From contig JAKLGA010000007.1 in the NCBI GenBank assembly GCA_022710975.1, positions 248,001 to 312,000 of the forward strand: 64,000 bases of DNA, written 5' to 3'. Numbering within the stretch: position 1 is the first letter of the stretch; each line of letters starts with the position of its first letter. Position numbers and translations under genes: made by a program. The DNA comes from Myxococcota bacterium. GTDB lineage: Bacteria; Myxococcota; B64-G9. Under the pieces are notes generated by a model, which was given only the letters and a program-made list of their open reading frames with translations, ran no database searches and had not been told where the DNA came from. This document shows positions 21,243 through 32,535 of this stretch, piece after piece.

Positions 21243-26234
<4,992 letters not shown>

Positions 26235-27116: not shown

Positions 27117-27848
27117 ATGCCTGCACGCGAACCCACCCGTGGAGCCTGGCGGCGCGCGGCGGCCGCGCTGCTGCGCCAGCTCGCGCCGGCCGCGGGCGCG
27201 CCGGCCCGGCTGCGCCTGGCCGCCCGGGAGCTGTGCGGCCGGCCCTACCTGGCCGGCTCGCTCATCGGCGGCCCGGCGCTGCCCGAACGCCTGGTCGTCC
27301 GGCTGGACGCCTTCGACTGCGTCACCTTCGTCGAGGCCTGCCTGGCGCTCGCGCGCAGCGCGGACGGGGACGGCTTCCTGGCCGAGCTGGTGGCCACCCG
27401 CTACCGCCACGGCCGGGTGAGCTGGCCCGACCGGCTGCACTACTTCTCGGACTGGCTGCGCTGGAACCGGCGGCGCGGGGCGCTGCGCCTGCTCAGCGCC
27501 GGGCCCGGGTCGCGCGAGCTCACGCCCCGCCTGGCCGTCCTGGAGGGGCTGCCCGCCCGGACCGCGCGCTTCCACGTGGTGCCTCGCCGGGCCCTGGCCC
27601 GGGCGCGCGCGCGGCTGCCGGAGTCGGCGCTGGTGGCCTTCGCCTCCCTGCGCGCGGGCCTGGACTTCTTCCACACGGGTCTGCTATTTGGCGACGCGCC
27701 GGGGCAGGCGCTCGAGGCGCGCGTCCTGATCCACGCCTCACGCAGCCGCGGCGGGGTGACGGCCGAGCCGCTGGGCGCGTTCCTGCGGCGGAACCGCACG
27801 CGCGGCCTCGCCCTGGCCGGGCCCTTGCCTGGTGGAGAGCATCGATGA
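27117..27848 (+). CDS. DUF1460 amidase-like protein (NlpC/P60-type fold)
   Basis: 243 residues. PYLAGSLIGG, then ERLVVRLDAFDCVTFVEACL and FFHTGLLF match the DUF1460 family, N-acetylmuramoyl-L-alanine amidase-like papain-fold enzymes; the likely nucleophile is Cys68 and the His lies in FFHTG. Family members with this fold cut muramoyl-peptide bonds. No hydrophobic signal peptide is seen at the N-terminus, which is instead Arg/Ala-rich, so the enzyme may act in the cytoplasm on imported fragments. It is the first gene of a four-gene unit: its TGA overlaps the next ATG (ATGA at 27845). Confidence 0.82.
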   Translation: MPAREPTRGAWRRAAAALLRQLAPAAGAPARLRLAARELCGRPYLAGSLIGGPALPERLVVRLDAFDCVTFVEACLALARSADGDGFLAELVATRYRHGRVSWPDRLHYFSDWLRWNRRRGALRLLSAGPGSRELTPRLAVLEGLPARTARFHVVPRRALARARARLPESALVAFASLRAGLDFFHTGLLFGDAPGQALEARVLIHASRSRGGVTAEPLGAFLRRNRTRGLALAGPLPGGEHR

Positions 27849-29326
27849 GCGCGCTGGCCACCGTCCTCCCCTGGAGCGGCGCGGGCGCGGAGCCCGCGGC
27901 GCGGGCGCTGCCCGGGCCGCTGGCCGTGATCGCGCCGCCCGGCCTGGACGCCCCGGCCGGCGCCGCGCGGCTGCTGCGCGCGCCGAGCCCGGACAGCGGC
28001 GCGGCGGCGCTCGAGGTGCTGCGCTGGTTCGAGGGCACCGGGGCCGAGCACCTCCTGTGGCTGCTCGACCCGGCGGCCGAGCTCGACCCGGCCGGGCTGC
28101 GCCGCCTGCGGCTCGCCGCCGAGGACACGGGCGCCAGCCTGGTCTACGGGGACTTCCTCGAGCGCGGCGCCGACGGCGCGCTGCACCCGCACCCGCTGCT
28201 GGACTACCAGCCGGGCAGCCTGCGCGACGACTTCGACTTCGGCCCCCTGCTGCTCTGCTCCCGGCGGGGGCTGGCCGGCCTGGCCGAGGGCCTGGCCGCG
28301 GACGCGGCCGGGCTGCGCTTCGGGGGGCTGTACGACCTGCGCCTGCGCCTGTCCGAGCGGGGCGCGCTGCTGCGCCTGCCCGAGCCCGTGTGCGTCCTGC
28401 CGGCCCGCGCGGAGCGGCCGAGCGGCCAGCAGATCTTCGACTACGTGGATCCGCGCAACCGCGACCGCCAGCGCGAGCTGGAGCTGGTGGCCACGGCCCA
28501 CCTGCGGCGCATCGGCGCCTGGCTGCCGCCGCCCCGCGCGCCCCGGGCCGCGGACGCGGGCGCCTTCCCGGTCGTGGCCAGCGTGGTCATCCCGGTCAAG
28601 GACCGGGCGCGCACGGTGCTGGACGCGGCCCGCAGCGCGCTCGGCCAGCGCGCCCCGTTCCCCTTCAACTTGCTGGTGGTGGACAACCACTCCAGCGACG
28701 GCACCACCCAGGCCCTGGCCGGGCTGGCCGCCCAGGACGCCCGCCTGGTGCACCTCGTCCCGGCCCGCCGCGACCTCGGCATCGGCGGCTGCTGGAACGA
28801 GGCCGTGTTCTCGCCGGCCTGCGGCCGGTACGCGGTCCAGCTCGACAGCGACGACCTGTACGCCGACGACCGGGTGCTGGCGCGCGTCGTGGCCGAGCTG
28901 GAGCGCGGGCCCTTCGCCCTGGTGATCGGGGCCTACACCACGGTCGACTTCCAGCTCCGGGAGCTCCCGCCCGGGCTGGTGGACCACCGCGAGTGGAGCG
29001 ACGAGAACGGCCACAACAACGCGCTGCGGGTGGCGGGGCTGGGCGCGCCGCGCGCCTTCCACGTGCCCAGCCTGCGGGCGCTGGGCTTCCCCAACGTCAG
29101 CTACGGCGAGGACTACGCGGTCGCGCTGCGCCTCAGCCGCAGCCACCGGATCGGGCGCCTGTACGACTCGCTGTACTGGTGCCGGCGCTGGGAGGGCAAC
29201 ACCGACAGCGCGCTCAGCCTGGAGGCCAGCAACCGCCACCTGGCCTACAAGGACCGCCTGCGCTCCATCGAGCTCGCCGCCCGCCAGGCGCTCGCGCGCG
29301 GCGGCCAGCCGGGGGTCGCGCCTTGA
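27845..29326 (+). CDS. GT2-family glycosyltransferase with extra N-terminal domain
   Basis: 493 residues. The first 225 residues resemble a degenerate second glycosyltransferase lobe (LLWLLDPAAELDPAGLRRL, LVYGDFLE). The active GT-A domain follows: VVASVVIPVKDRARTVLDAA, FNLLVVDNHSSDGTTQALAG, and the metal motif QLDSDDLYADD (DxD). SYGEDYAVALRLS carries the likely catalytic Glu-Asp. It is soluble; no membrane helices are seen. Sugar donor and acceptor are unknown. It is translationally coupled on both sides (ATGA before, TTGA after), so it probably works with the amidase and the DUF4922 enzyme. Confidence 0.85.
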   Translation: MSALATVLPWSGAGAEPAARALPGPLAVIAPPGLDAPAGAARLLRAPSPDSGAAALEVLRWFEGTGAEHLLWLLDPAAELDPAGLRRLRLAAEDTGASLVYGDFLERGADGALHPHPLLDYQPGSLRDDFDFGPLLLCSRRGLAGLAEGLAADAAGLRFGGLYDLRLRLSERGALLRLPEPVCVLPARAERPSGQQIFDYVDPRNRDRQRELELVATAHLRRIGAWLPPPRAPRAADAGAFPVVASVVIPVKDRARTVLDAARSALGQRAPFPFNLLVVDNHSSDGTTQALAGLAAQDARLVHLVPARRDLGIGGCWNEAVFSPACGRYAVQLDSDDLYADDRVLARVVAELERGPFALVIGAYTTVDFQLRELPPGLVDHREWSDENGHNNALRVAGLGAPRAFHVPSLRALGFPNVSYGEDYAVALRLSRSHRIGRLYDSLYWCRRWEGNTDSALSLEASNRHLAYKDRLRSIELAARQALARGGQPGVAP

Positions 29327-30276
29327 GCTGGGAGCAGGTCGCCCTGGAGCCGGCCCGCGAGCCGACCGGGCTGGGCGCGCAGCTCGAGGCGCTGTTCGCC
29401 GATCAGCGCGCGCGCTGGCCGGCCCTGCGCGCGGGCGAGGCAGCCCTGGCCGGCCTGCGCACCCGGGTGCTCCACGAGGAGGGGACCTGGGTCGTGGCCC
29501 AGGCCAACCCGGGCCGGCGCGCCTCGACCCAGGCCCGGGTCGAGCCGCAGGCCATCGCCGCCCGGCCCTGCTTCCTGTGCCCCGAAAACCTGCCGCCCGA
29601 GGAGCGCGGGCTGCCCTTCGGCGAGCTGGTGCTGCTGCCCAACCCCTTCCCCGTGCTACCGCGCCACTGCACCGTGCCCGCGCGCGTCCACGCGCCACAG
29701 CGCCTGGCCGGCCGGCTGGAGTGCATGCTGGCCCTGGCCCGGGCGCTGGGACCCGAGCTGACGGTGTTCTACAACGGCCCGCGCTGCGGGGCGTCCGCCC
29801 CGGACCACGCCCACTTCCAGGTGGTCGCCGCGCGCGCGGTGCCGCTGTTCGAGCAGCTCCCGCTGCAGGGCCTGGCCGACGAGCGCCGCGCCTGGGAGAG
29901 CTTCGGGCGGCGCATGCTGCTGGCCGTGCACCGCGACCCGCGGGCCGCCCGGGCCTACCTGGAGGCCGCGCTCCTGGCGCTCGCCCGGCTGCAGCCGGGC
30001 GAGGACGAGCCCATGCTCAACCTGTTCCTGCTGGCGCGGGGCGGGCGCCTGTGGAGCGTGGTGTTCCCCCGCCGCGCGCACCGTCCGGCCTGCTTCTCCG
30101 CCGAGGGCGCGGCCCGCCTGAGCGTCAGCCCGGCCGCCCTGGAGATGGCCGGCGTGCTGGTGGTGCCCGAGCCGGAGCAGCTCGATCGGCTGGACGCCGC
30201 CGCGGCCCGGGCGATCTACGCCGAGGTCTGCCTGGAGGCCGGGCCCTTCGCCCGGCTGGCCGAGGAGCTGGCATGA
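29323..30276 (+). CDS. DUF4922 HIT-like nucleotidyltransferase/phosphorylase
   Basis: 317 residues from a TTG that overlaps the preceding stop (TTGA). PCFLCPENLPPEERGLPFGE and LPNPFPVLPRHCTVPARVH, with APDHAHFQVV as the His-x-His catalytic loop, place it near the DUF4922/GDP-sugar-phosphorylase branch of the HIT superfamily. Such enzymes transfer or release nucleotidyl groups from sugar phosphates; the substrate here is unassigned. TTG is chosen because no other in-frame start precedes the conserved region and the overlap arrangement repeats along the operon. Activation or phosphorolysis of an amino-sugar nucleotide is an inference from its neighbours. Confidence 0.8.
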   Translation: MSWEQVALEPAREPTGLGAQLEALFADQRARWPALRAGEAALAGLRTRVLHEEGTWVVAQANPGRRASTQARVEPQAIAARPCFLCPENLPPEERGLPFGELVLLPNPFPVLPRHCTVPARVHAPQRLAGRLECMLALARALGPELTVFYNGPRCGASAPDHAHFQVVAARAVPLFEQLPLQGLADERRAWESFGRRMLLAVHRDPRAARAYLEAALLALARLQPGEDEPMLNLFLLARGGRLWSVVFPRRAHRPACFSAEGAARLSVSPAALEMAGVLVVPEPEQLDRLDAAAARAIYAEVCLEAGPFARLAEELA

Positions 30277-31589
30277 CGGCGCCGCCGACCGGCCAGGAGC
30301 CGCGCATCGAGGTGGGCCTGCTCGACGGGGTCGCGGAGCTCGCGCTCCGCCTGGAGGGCGCCTTCCGCGCCGCGGACGGAAGCCGCGCGGGGCCAGGGGA
30401 GCTCCGCCTGCAGGCCGGGGGACCGGGCCTGCCCGACGGCGCGGAGCTGCGGCTCGAGCCCGAGGAGCCCGGGCGCGCGGCCTTCGCGCTCGAGGCCACC
30501 ATCGGCATCGACTTTCACTGGCAGCAGCGCGAGCTCCAGCGTTTCCAGGGCGGGCTGCGCGTGCTCGCCCGCCGCGGCCGGCTCACGCTGGTGAACACGG
30601 TGCCGCTGGAGACCTACCTGCGCTCGGTCATCGGCTCGGAGATGAACGCCGCCTCGCCGCCTGCGCTGGCGCGCGCCCACGCGATCATCTCGCGCTCCTG
30701 GCTGCTCGCCCAGCTGGCGGGGCGGGGCGCGCAGGCGCGGGCCGCGGCCGGGATGCTCGACGAGCCCGGGGAGCTGCGGCGCTGGACCGATCGCCAGGCC
30801 CACGCCGACTTCGACGTGTGCGCGGACGACCACTGCCAGCGCTACCAGGGGCTCAGCCGGGTGGCGCCCGCCGCGGCCGAGGCCATCGCCGCCACGCGCG
30901 GCGTGGTGCTGACCCACGGCGGCGCCGCCTGCGACGCGCGCTTCAGCAAGTGCTGCGGCGGGGTGAGCGAGGACTTCCGCACCGCCTGGGGCGACGAGCC
31001 GGTGCCCTACCTCGTGCCGGTGCGGGATCAGGCCGGTCCGGCCGGGCCGCTGCCCGGGCTGGAGACCGAGCCGGGCCTACGGGCCTTCCTGTCGGCGCCG
31101 CCAGCGGCCTACTGCGCCCAGGCCGAGCCGCACATCCTGGCGCGCGTGCTGAACAGCTACGACCTCGGCACCCGGGACTTCTTCCGCTGGCGGGTGCGCC
31201 TGCCGGCGGACGAGGCCGGCCGGCTGGTGCGTGAGCGCGTGGGGCGCGATCTCGGGCGGTTGCTCGCGCTCGAGCCCCTGGCGCGCGGGCCCTCGGGCCG
31301 GCTCCACCGCCTGCGGCTGCGGGGCGAGCGGGGGGAGCTGGTGCTGGGCAAGGAGCTGCTGATCCGCCGGGCGCTGTCGGACAGCCACCTGCTGAGCTCG
31401 GCCTTCGCCGTGGACGCGGAGGGGCCGGCCGCGCGGCCCGAGGCCTTCGTGCTGCGCGGGGCGGGCTGGGGGCACGGGGTGGGCCTGTGCCAGATCGGCG
31501 CCGCGGTGATGGCCTGCCAGGGCCACGCGCACGAGGCGATCCTGGCGCACTACTACCCGGGTACGGCGCTCGCGCGCTGCTACCCCTGA
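30273..31589 (+). CDS. SpoIID/LytB-domain protein
   Basis: 438 residues; ATGA overlap with the DUF4922 gene. The SpoIID core is clear: NTVPLETYLRSVIGSEMNAA, with the Glu of SEM corresponding to the catalytic acid of SpoIID lytic transglycosylase, then HAIISRSWLLAQ, AATRGVVLTHGG, KCCGGVSEDFRTAW and GWGHGVGLCQIGA. SpoIID cleaves glycan strands that have lost their stem peptides. That would fit downstream of an amidase such as the DUF1460 enzyme in this operon. No signal peptide is visible (the start reads MTAPPTGQEPRIEVGLLDG), unlike most secreted relatives. The gene ends the coupled unit; a hydrolase gene follows after 10 bases. Confidence 0.88.
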   Translation: MTAPPTGQEPRIEVGLLDGVAELALRLEGAFRAADGSRAGPGELRLQAGGPGLPDGAELRLEPEEPGRAAFALEATIGIDFHWQQRELQRFQGGLRVLARRGRLTLVNTVPLETYLRSVIGSEMNAASPPALARAHAIISRSWLLAQLAGRGAQARAAAGMLDEPGELRRWTDRQAHADFDVCADDHCQRYQGLSRVAPAAAEAIAATRGVVLTHGGAACDARFSKCCGGVSEDFRTAWGDEPVPYLVPVRDQAGPAGPLPGLETEPGLRAFLSAPPAAYCAQAEPHILARVLNSYDLGTRDFFRWRVRLPADEAGRLVRERVGRDLGRLLALEPLARGPSGRLHRLRLRGERGELVLGKELLIRRALSDSHLLSSAFAVDAEGPAARPEAFVLRGAGWGHGVGLCQIGAAVMACQGHAHEAILAHYYPGTALARCYP

Positions 31590-31599
31590 GGAGCCCGGC

Positions 31600-32535
31600 G
31601 TGCCGCAGACCGCCCCCACCGCCCCCCCGGGTTGCGCCTCGAGGTTCGTCGAGGTGCTGGGCCACAGGCTGCACTGCCTGGAGGCCGGCGCGGGCGGCCC
31701 GCCGGTGCTCTTCCTGCACGGCATCCCCACCCACGCCGGGCTGTGGCGGAACGTCCTGCCGTGGGTCGCGCCCCGGGCGCGCTGCGTCGCGCTCGACCTG
31801 CTGGGCTTCGGCCAGTCGGACAAACCGCTCGACGTGGAGTACGGGCTGACCACCCAGGCGCGCCACGTGGCGGGGGCGGTCGAGGCCCTCGGGCTGGCTG
31901 GCGCGCTGGTGGTGGGCATGGACCTCGGCCTGCTGGTCGGGCTGCGCTACGCGCGCGAGCACGAGGCGGACGTCCGCGGGCTGGTGCTCCTCGAGGGGTT
32001 CATCCAGCCCATGGCGCAGGCCTACCGGGCCCTGCCGCTCGCCAGCCGCGTGCCCCTGGCGCTCTCCCGGCCGCGCTGGCTGGCCGAGCTGATGATCGTG
32101 CGCGGCGGCACCCGGGTGGTCGAGCGCATGCTCACCGGGGGCACGCTGCGCCGCTACACCCCGGAGGAGCTGGAGGCCTACCGCGCGCCGCTCCGCGACC
32201 CGGCCGTGCGCCGCAAGGTGTGGCTGGAGGGCGCCGGGCCGCGCTCCATCCGACCCGTCTCCCGGGCCCCCGGCGACCTGGTCGAGCAGATCGATCAGGG
32301 CGCCACCTGGCTGCGCGGCTCCAGCCTGCCCAAGCTGCTGCTGCACGGGGAGCCGGGCATGGCCGTCTCGGCGCCGACGCTCACCTACGCCCGAGAGCAC
32401 CTGACCGCGCTCGAGATCGAGAGCGTGGGCCCGGGCAAGCACTTCCTGCCCGAGGACCAGCCCGAGGCCATCGGCCGGGCCATCGCCGGGTTCCACGCCA
32501 GGCTGCCCGGCCCCGGCGCCTCCTCGGCCTCCTAG
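31600..32535 (+). CDS. Alpha/beta hydrolase with Asp nucleophile, haloalkane-dehalogenase-like
   Basis: 311 residues from a GTG with GAGGAG upstream. The layout follows haloalkane dehalogenases: oxyanion loop LFLHGIPTHAGLWRN, nucleophile elbow VVGMDLGLLVG (Asp), acid in VLLEGFIQPM (Glu), His in GPGKHFLPEDQPEAIG. Two halide-stabilising residues are missing: the Asn of HGNP is Ile here, and the Trp right after the nucleophile is Leu. Dehalogenation is therefore doubtful; another Asp-nucleophile hydrolysis, such as of epoxides, is possible. It probably reads through from the SpoIID operon. It converges with the metallophosphoesterase, sharing CTAG at 32532-32535. Confidence 0.83.
   Translation: MPQTAPTAPPGCASRFVEVLGHRLHCLEAGAGGPPVLFLHGIPTHAGLWRNVLPWVAPRARCVALDLLGFGQSDKPLDVEYGLTTQARHVAGAVEALGLAGALVVGMDLGLLVGLRYAREHEADVRGLVLLEGFIQPMAQAYRALPLASRVPLALSRPRWLAELMIVRGGTRVVERMLTGGTLRRYTPEELEAYRAPLRDPAVRRKVWLEGAGPRSIRPVSRAPGDLVEQIDQGATWLRGSSLPKLLLHGEPGMAVSAPTLTYAREHLTALEIESVGPGKHFLPEDQPEAIGRAIAGFHARLPGPGASSAS

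Follow-up and report, generated by a model that had tools for sequence, protein, structure and literature searches.

A conserved gene triad encoding GT2, DUF4922, and SpoIID-domain proteins as a likely step of cell-wall recycling

What might two families of peptidoglycan-acting enzymes that are usually exported be doing together inside the cell, in an operon with a glycosyltransferase and an enzyme of the nucleotide-sugar type? This question is raised by four forward-strand genes in a 64,000-nt stretch of DNA from a Myxococcota bacterium, hereafter called the window (contig C27 of genome G000, 7.1 Mb). Gene A (27117..27848; 243 aa) codes for a DUF1460 or AmiA-like muramoyl-L-alanine amidase (PF07313, E 1.4e-32) and gene B (27845..29326; 493 aa) for a family 2 glycosyltransferase, or GT2 (PF00535, E 5.7e-16). 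Gene C (29323..30276; 317 aa) has a TTG start and codes for a DUF4922 protein (PF16269, E 1.7e-44), and gene D (30273..31589; 438 aa) codes for a SpoIID/LytB-domain protein (PF08486, E 2e-21; TIGR02669, E 1.3e-46). Adjoining genes share exactly 4 bp, as ATGA at 27845, TTGA at 29323, and ATGA at 30273, and these overlaps suggest that the four proteins are produced together by translational coupling. The G+C content at third codon positions (GC3) is 0.93-0.99 in all four open frames, which is coding-like, as expected for genes of this DNA. An earlier note on this locus had described the same overlaps and family names; the frames and coordinates were re-derived and agree with it, and Pfam and NCBIfam matches bear out the names.

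Most likely, genes B, C, and D represent an unstudied step of cell-wall recycling, conserved and apparently uncharacterized, because these three genes travel together across phyla, usually beside an importer of wall fragments. We consider it likely that the operon as a whole serves to process peptidoglycan fragments in the cytoplasm after their import. The sequences argue for this through the cytoplasmic location of the proteins, the conservation of the genes as a module, their natural fusions, their intact active-site motifs, and their wall-salvage neighborhood.

Cytoplasmic location of the operon proteins

Gene A has no in-frame start codon upstream, and therefore no signal peptide can hide there. 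The starts of genes B, C, and D were fixed by N-terminal alignment with orthologs, in which the N-terminal part of SpoIID begins within residues 1-10. As a proxy for signal peptides we used a home-made hydrophobic-segment score (not SignalP) over the first 45 residues, with values of at least 2.2 counted as a pass. None of 85 DUF4922 and none of six DUF1460 orthologs passed, and the rate for GT2 orthologs was 3%. Among control proteins, 92% of exported NamZ sequences passed, as did 5-8% of cytoplasmic MurK and MurQ sequences. The score was likewise negative for all 59 SpoIID orthologs, which thus lack the export that characterizes SpoIID lytic transglycosylases. The match of gene D to TIGR02870 falls below the cut-off, and so it is not a sporulation SpoIID.

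Paralogs in the same genome provide a second comparison. Each of the four further SpoIID genes, like the single further DUF1460 gene, opens with a signal peptide or lipobox; for one of these SpoIID paralogs (L121) the start was located by the onset of GC3, and this paralog is exported. Because all five paralogs carry export signals, the operon copy is the cytoplasmic one in both families, and by its sequence the SpoIID protein of the operon belongs to a cytoplasmic subfamily. The frame of gene A, the ortholog scores, and the exported paralogs together rule out signal peptides hidden by misplaced starts. The same evidence upholds two statements of the earlier note, namely that none of the four proteins has a signal peptide and that both wall-acting families are usually exported.

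A conserved triad among wall-salvage genes

A DUF4922 alignment scanned against 84,980 species genomes gave 572 confirmed relatives, and the best 80 of these were combined with six stretches from the phylum of the window into a set of 86 loci (L017 and L019, the latter equal to G007, are one contig). This cut to the best 80 tilts the sample to close relatives. GT2 is encoded in 84 of the 86 loci and SpoIID in about 59, nearly always in the order GT2-DUF4922-SpoIID. This triad was found in Planctomycetota, Fibrobacterota, Acidobacteriota, Bacteroidota, Ignavibacteria, and Syntrophaceae-type or deltaproteobacterial lineages. Viral contigs yielded no relative of DUF4922.

The order of all four genes, whose conservation the earlier note had suggested checking, is kept in three other genomes of the window's phylum (G005, G023, and G037), but elsewhere the core is three genes without DUF1460. 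Within the phylum, G007 keeps the first three genes but not SpoIID, and both G002 and G003 keep the last three, in G003 at a contig end; DUF1460 precedes GT2 in loci L013, L016, L017, and L018. Where the gene order is the same, protein identity is 45-63% for other families of the phylum and 31-62% for other phyla. Conservation of the gene order thus goes far past what chance would give, its core is the triad GT2-DUF4922-SpoIID, and DUF1460 joins this unit only in the phylum of the window. The possibility that the order recurs nowhere else, which the note had also raised, is contradicted by the presence of the triad across many phyla. The pairwise distance matrices of the three triad proteins correlate with r = 0.89-0.91 (51 loci), a correlation that shared ancestry alone would also produce.

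In some species the triad proteins are joined into single polypeptides. A Prevotellaceae genome encodes GT2-DUF4922-SpoIID as one protein of 1218 aa with no signal peptide, Carboxylicivirga linearis carries a DUF4922-SpoIID fusion of 758 aa, and a Syntrophaceae genome has a GT2-DUF4922 fusion of 841 aa. Pfam confirms the domains of all three proteins, two of which come from metagenome-assembled genomes. Such natural fusions place the fused domains in the same compartment, and they suggest that the triad forms a protein complex. Separately, Syntrophaceae-type loci (L069:9079-9633, L077:8956-9510, L052, and L080) carry a gene for an M15 peptidase of the D-alanyl-D-alanine carboxypeptidase family (184 aa) after DUF4922, in the place of SpoIID, possibly as a functional swap.

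The genes surrounding the triad were clustered across loci, and cluster representatives were checked by Pfam. A Tannerella-type AmpG gene of the major facilitator superfamily (MFS) lies near the triad in 51 of the 86 loci, at a median of 2.6 kb downstream. Other recurring neighbors are NamZ (35 loci), a MurK-like kinase (19), and a MurQ-like protein (13), and NagZ, Mpl, and GHL10 recur as well. In the window's own phylum, a locus with all four genes (L018) has a serine hydrolase and an Mpl-type ligase upstream and NagZ downstream. A NagZ-type GH3 protein, AmpG, and GHL10 surround the triad in a planctomycete (L021), GH3 and AmpG lie near it in two Ignavibacteria (L088 and L092), and L020 contains an exported DUF1460.

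In Bacteroidota the operon is almost always headed by the gene for an exported Golvesin_C protein of about 1000 aa (for example, L037:1437-4505; 37 loci), the "xanthan lyase" of T. forsythia. In 26 loci (L028, L033, L058, and others) there is a FAD/Fe-S oxidase of the GlcD type, about 950 aa long, for which the D-lactate that MurQ frees from N-acetylmuramic acid (MurNAc) would be a natural substrate. A fusion of GH9 and polysaccharide deacetylase lies between SpoIID and AmpG in the Bacteroidota loci L029, L031, L039, L048, L064, and L074.

One of these loci (L061; contig NZ_JUET01000082) belongs to Tannerella forsythia ATCC 43037 and has been described experimentally. Reverse transcription PCR (RT-PCR) established that Tanf_08345-08385 is a single transcript, which contains "xanthan lyase," two "glycosyltransferases," a lytB "amidase enhancer precursor," ampG, ybbC (NamZ), murT, murK, and murQ, and of these ampG and murTKQ are functional (Ruscitto et al., PMC5388701). 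Position and Pfam identify Tanf_08350 as the GT2, Tanf_08355 as the DUF4922 protein, and Tanf_08360 as the SpoIID protein. The triad is therefore present in the same order as in the window; unlike the window operon, the Tannerella unit lacks DUF1460, whereas the window operon has no adjacent ampG, namZ, or murTKQ, and MurQ is missing from the window genome.

In the literature on the Tannerella operon we found the triad annotated only, with no function assigned. Literature on DUF4922 yielded only work on plant GDP-L-galactose phosphorylase, and that on SpoIID together with AmpG gave no account of this module. The earlier note's impression that this is not a described pathway thus stands as far as function is concerned, but the triad itself sits within the published ampG-murTKQ operon.

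Predicted activities of the four proteins

The PF07313 match of gene A covers profile positions 4-200 of 202, and its relatives in the Protein Data Bank (PDB) are 4h4j/4q68, 2im9, and 2p1g. The predicted catalytic Cys68 lies in an FDCVTF motif (27318..27320, forward strand). It is invariant in an alignment of five sequences, as are H186 and H206, the candidate catalytic histidines by alignment; DUF1460 enzymes use a Cys-His-His catalytic triad (PMC10318531). From its family, we predict that the gene A product cleaves the stem peptide off anhydro-muropeptides that have been imported. In 2014, Xu et al. reportedly found the DUF1460 amidase AmiA of Bacteroides uniformis to be specific for N-acetylglucosamine (GlcNAc)-anhydro-MurNAc-peptides, the cargo of AmpG. 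Gene A shares the family and catalytic cysteine of AmiA, but it has no signal peptide and is coupled to the triad.

The GT2 domain occupies the C-terminal part of gene B, and we read the N-terminal region as a degenerate GT-A domain. By profile, gene B most closely matches chondroitin synthase, over two stretches (2z87/2z86, E 6e-20). The sequence DSDD (D334-D337; 28844..28855, forward strand), the predicted donor- and metal-binding DXD motif, is invariant in 28 orthologs.

The AlphaFold model of the DUF4922 protein has a pLDDT of 93, and its best PDB match is the yeast Ap4A phosphorylase Apa2 (4i5t; Foldseek E 1.2e-9, probability 1.00). The sequence profile also matches 4i5t (E 2e-5), with 16-19% identity to Apa2. 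The protein contains an HxHxQ motif (H162-A-H164-F-Q166; 29806..29820, forward strand) whose two histidines and glutamine do not vary among 30 orthologs, and H164 is predicted to be the nucleotidylated histidine, by its role in the GalT family. On this basis, the protein is predicted to be a nucleotidyl transferase or phosphorylase of the GalT/Ap4A-phosphorylase type. It shares its fold and HxHxQ motif with Apa2, ADP-glucose phosphorylase, GalT, and GDP-L-galactose phosphorylase, and it differs from this group in that gene C adjoins a GT2 gene, mostly within wall-salvage clusters.

The model of gene D matches the SpoIID structure 5i1t (Foldseek E 7.7e-11), and TIGR02669 scores over its cut-off. 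Its catalytic Glu123, in an SVIxSEM motif (30639..30641, forward strand), is invariant in 18 orthologs and corresponds, from an alignment to 4rwr and published work, to E101 of the Clostridioides difficile enzyme and E88 of that from Bacillus subtilis (PMC6934232, PMC6635528). A predicted zinc site (H177, C183, H187, and C188; 30801..30836, forward strand) is likewise invariant in all 18 and fits the clostridial motif yCxdxxHCQ, except that the spacing from C183 to H187 is shorter by one residue; the corresponding C. difficile ligands are H134, C140, H145, and C146 (PMC6934232). Because the catalytic glutamate and zinc ligands are kept in every one of these orthologs and the fold matches, gene D is probably active on an amino-sugar glycan, and it is predicted to be a cytoplasmic lytic transglycosylase or muramidase. 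It resembles the B. subtilis, C. difficile, and Waddlia SpoIID/LytB enzymes in fold, glutamate motif, and clostridial-type zinc ligands. Those enzymes are exported and act on the sacculus, whereas the gene D subfamily lacks a signal peptide, has an N-terminal extension, and in some species is fused to GT2 and DUF4922.

Elsewhere in the window, a 1663-aa open reading frame (21243-26234, reverse strand) matches two UvrA DNA-binding domains and several ABC ATPase motifs, as a double-length UvrA paralog in one polypeptide.

A putative salvage route and its alternatives

If the operon processes imported wall fragments, anhydro-muropeptides or wall disaccharides would enter the cell by an AmpG-type permease. 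The cytoplasmic DUF1460 amidase would then strip the stem peptide, which Mpl can rejoin to a precursor, and NagZ would take off GlcNAc. GT2, DUF4922, and SpoIID would jointly process the sugar part at its MurNAc end. In this scheme SpoIID may make or break the MurNAc C1 bond (glycosidic or 1,6-anhydro), DUF4922 may transfer, exchange, or phosphorolyze a nucleotide-activated sugar, and GT2 may catalyze sugar transfer between nucleotide donor and wall fragment. We infer the AmpG-NagZ-Mpl route in the window organism, the amidase step from its family, and each of the triad reactions.

The window genome encodes NagZ, Mpl in addition to MurC, and one Tannerella-type AmpG homolog that is 44% identical to T. 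forsythia AmpG (G000:C7:90303-91544; L110:9268-10554). The proposed route would resemble the AmpG/NagZ/AmpD/LdcA/AnmK/Mpl recycling of Escherichia coli in cytoplasmic fragment processing; NagZ and Mpl homologs are common to both, the AmpG-type MFS is a candidate for the permease, and the cytoplasmic DUF1460 could serve as the AmpD step. In contrast to the E. coli route, this genome lacks AnmK and MurQ, and nothing in that route corresponds to the GT2, the GalT-type enzyme, or the cytoplasmic SpoIID. The earlier note had suggested a cytoplasmic route that trims and re-uses imported wall fragments. Location, conserved order, and the link to AmpG and other wall-salvage genes all favor this proposal, with the adjustments that the core comprises three genes and that AmpG is not adjacent in the window.

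Several observations weigh against the salvage reading. We know of no salvage route that needs a glycosyltransferase and a nucleotide-sugar phosphorylase, and our literature search found no biochemical data on the triad. About one third of the sampled carriers do not have SpoIID beside DUF4922. The link to AmpG that the note had suggested checking holds for the loci as a set, but no AmpG, NagZ, MurK, or MurQ gene adjoins the operon in the window, and AmpG adjacency as a universal rule fails in its phylum. Furthermore, three carriers of the same phylum (G002, G003, and G005) gave no AmpG match; when 15 further carriers were searched, two, both Acidobacteriota, gave none either, and ten of the 13 matches were strong. 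The AmpG homolog of the window genome directly precedes the gene for a GH31 protein of 1211 aa that has EGF-like repeats, and a LamB porin is encoded nearby. Because of this setting it may carry another sugar, and the location suggests either a different cargo or a shared one.

In an alternative explanation, the triad builds and trims some other cytoplasmic glycan, such as a storage polymer, a capsule, or a lipid-linked oligosaccharide. GT2 would polymerize, DUF4922 would tune the pool of nucleoside diphosphate (NDP) sugars, and SpoIID would trim, while the salvage neighbors would share regulation only. The profile similarity of GT2 to chondroitin synthase, the place of DUF4922 in the GalT/Apa2 group of nucleotide-sugar enzymes, the GH31 and LamB neighbors of AmpG, the carriers with no AmpG match, and an older report's label of "glycosylation related" for the Tannerella operon (cited in PMC5388701) all speak for this. 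We nevertheless consider it unlikely, given that the recurring neighbors are wall-salvage genes in Bacteroidota, Ignavibacteria, Planctomycetota, and the window's phylum, that SpoIID retains the active site of a wall enzyme, and that the fourth gene in the window's phylum is a muramoyl amidase.

A narrower form of the salvage reading would make SpoIID a replacement for AnmK. In it, a lytic transglycosylase running in reverse opens the 1,6-anhydro ring of GlcNAc-anhydro-MurNAc with water or a sugar acceptor, freeing MurNAc for re-use. Indeed, T. forsythia uses this disaccharide yet lacks AnmK, and the fate of its anhydro-MurNAc has been stated as open (PMC7670621). The Waddlia SpoIID is both a lytic transglycosylase and a muramidase (PMC6635528). 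We searched for AnmK in 195 genomes of the window's phylum and in 32 named carriers. None was found in the window genome, which also had no MurQ over the cut-off (31 bits, cut-off 302), or in the other six full cassette carriers of the phylum. Because most AnmK genes of this phylum lie in genomes of another family, however, the absence may reflect ancestry. AnmK is present in 16 of the 32 cassette carriers elsewhere, and therefore its replacement is rejected as a general role of the triad. The idea also leaves GT2 and DUF4922 unexplained, and overall we give it a small chance of being correct.

Much less probable is that the proteins leave the cytoplasm by an unrecognized route, with SpoIID and DUF1460 working in the periplasm like other members of their families. 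In favor of this, export is the norm for both families and holds for the paralogs of the window genome, and the Tannerella SpoIID gene is annotated as an "amidase enhancer precursor." Against this stand the ortholog scores for both families, the position of the SpoIID N-terminal part at the very start of the protein, and the fusion of SpoIID, in a polypeptide whose N terminus has no signal peptide, to two enzymes that depend on cytoplasmic nucleotides, GT2 and DUF4922.

Chance adjacency of functionally unrelated genes can be dismissed: close spacing alone means little here, because an unrelated alpha/beta hydrolase gene begins 10 bp past SpoIID, but the order conserved within the phylum and beyond it, the natural fusions, and the published co-transcription of the triad (PMC5388701) already refute it. 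That hydrolase (31600-32535, forward strand) is haloalkane dehalogenase-like (233.8 bits, cut-off 241), and it was rejected as a fifth member of the operon for want of a counterpart in related loci of the same phylum.

Returning to the salvage of wall fragments, a more specific proposal is possible, if somewhat doubtful. The triad may be a single cytoplasmic enzyme complex that runs an undescribed sugar cycle, combining a lytic transglycosylase fold acting on MurNAc or anhydro-MurNAc with glycosyl transfer and nucleotide-sugar phosphorolysis. Such a cycle would supply the missing route for anhydro-MurNAc in bacteria without AnmK, such as T. forsythia and the window organism.

The order of the triad is kept across at least six phyla and occurs inside the best-studied wall-salvage operon of Bacteroidota. 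Beside a GalT-type nucleotide enzyme and a glycosyltransferase, it brings a lytic transglycosylase fold into the cytoplasm, a compartment in which such a fold is unexpected. If these proteins do process MurNAc fragments, they would fill the stated gap in T. forsythia, which is how anhydro-MurNAc is used without AnmK, and would establish a path of wall recycling for Bacteroidota, Planctomycetota, and further phyla that have been little studied.

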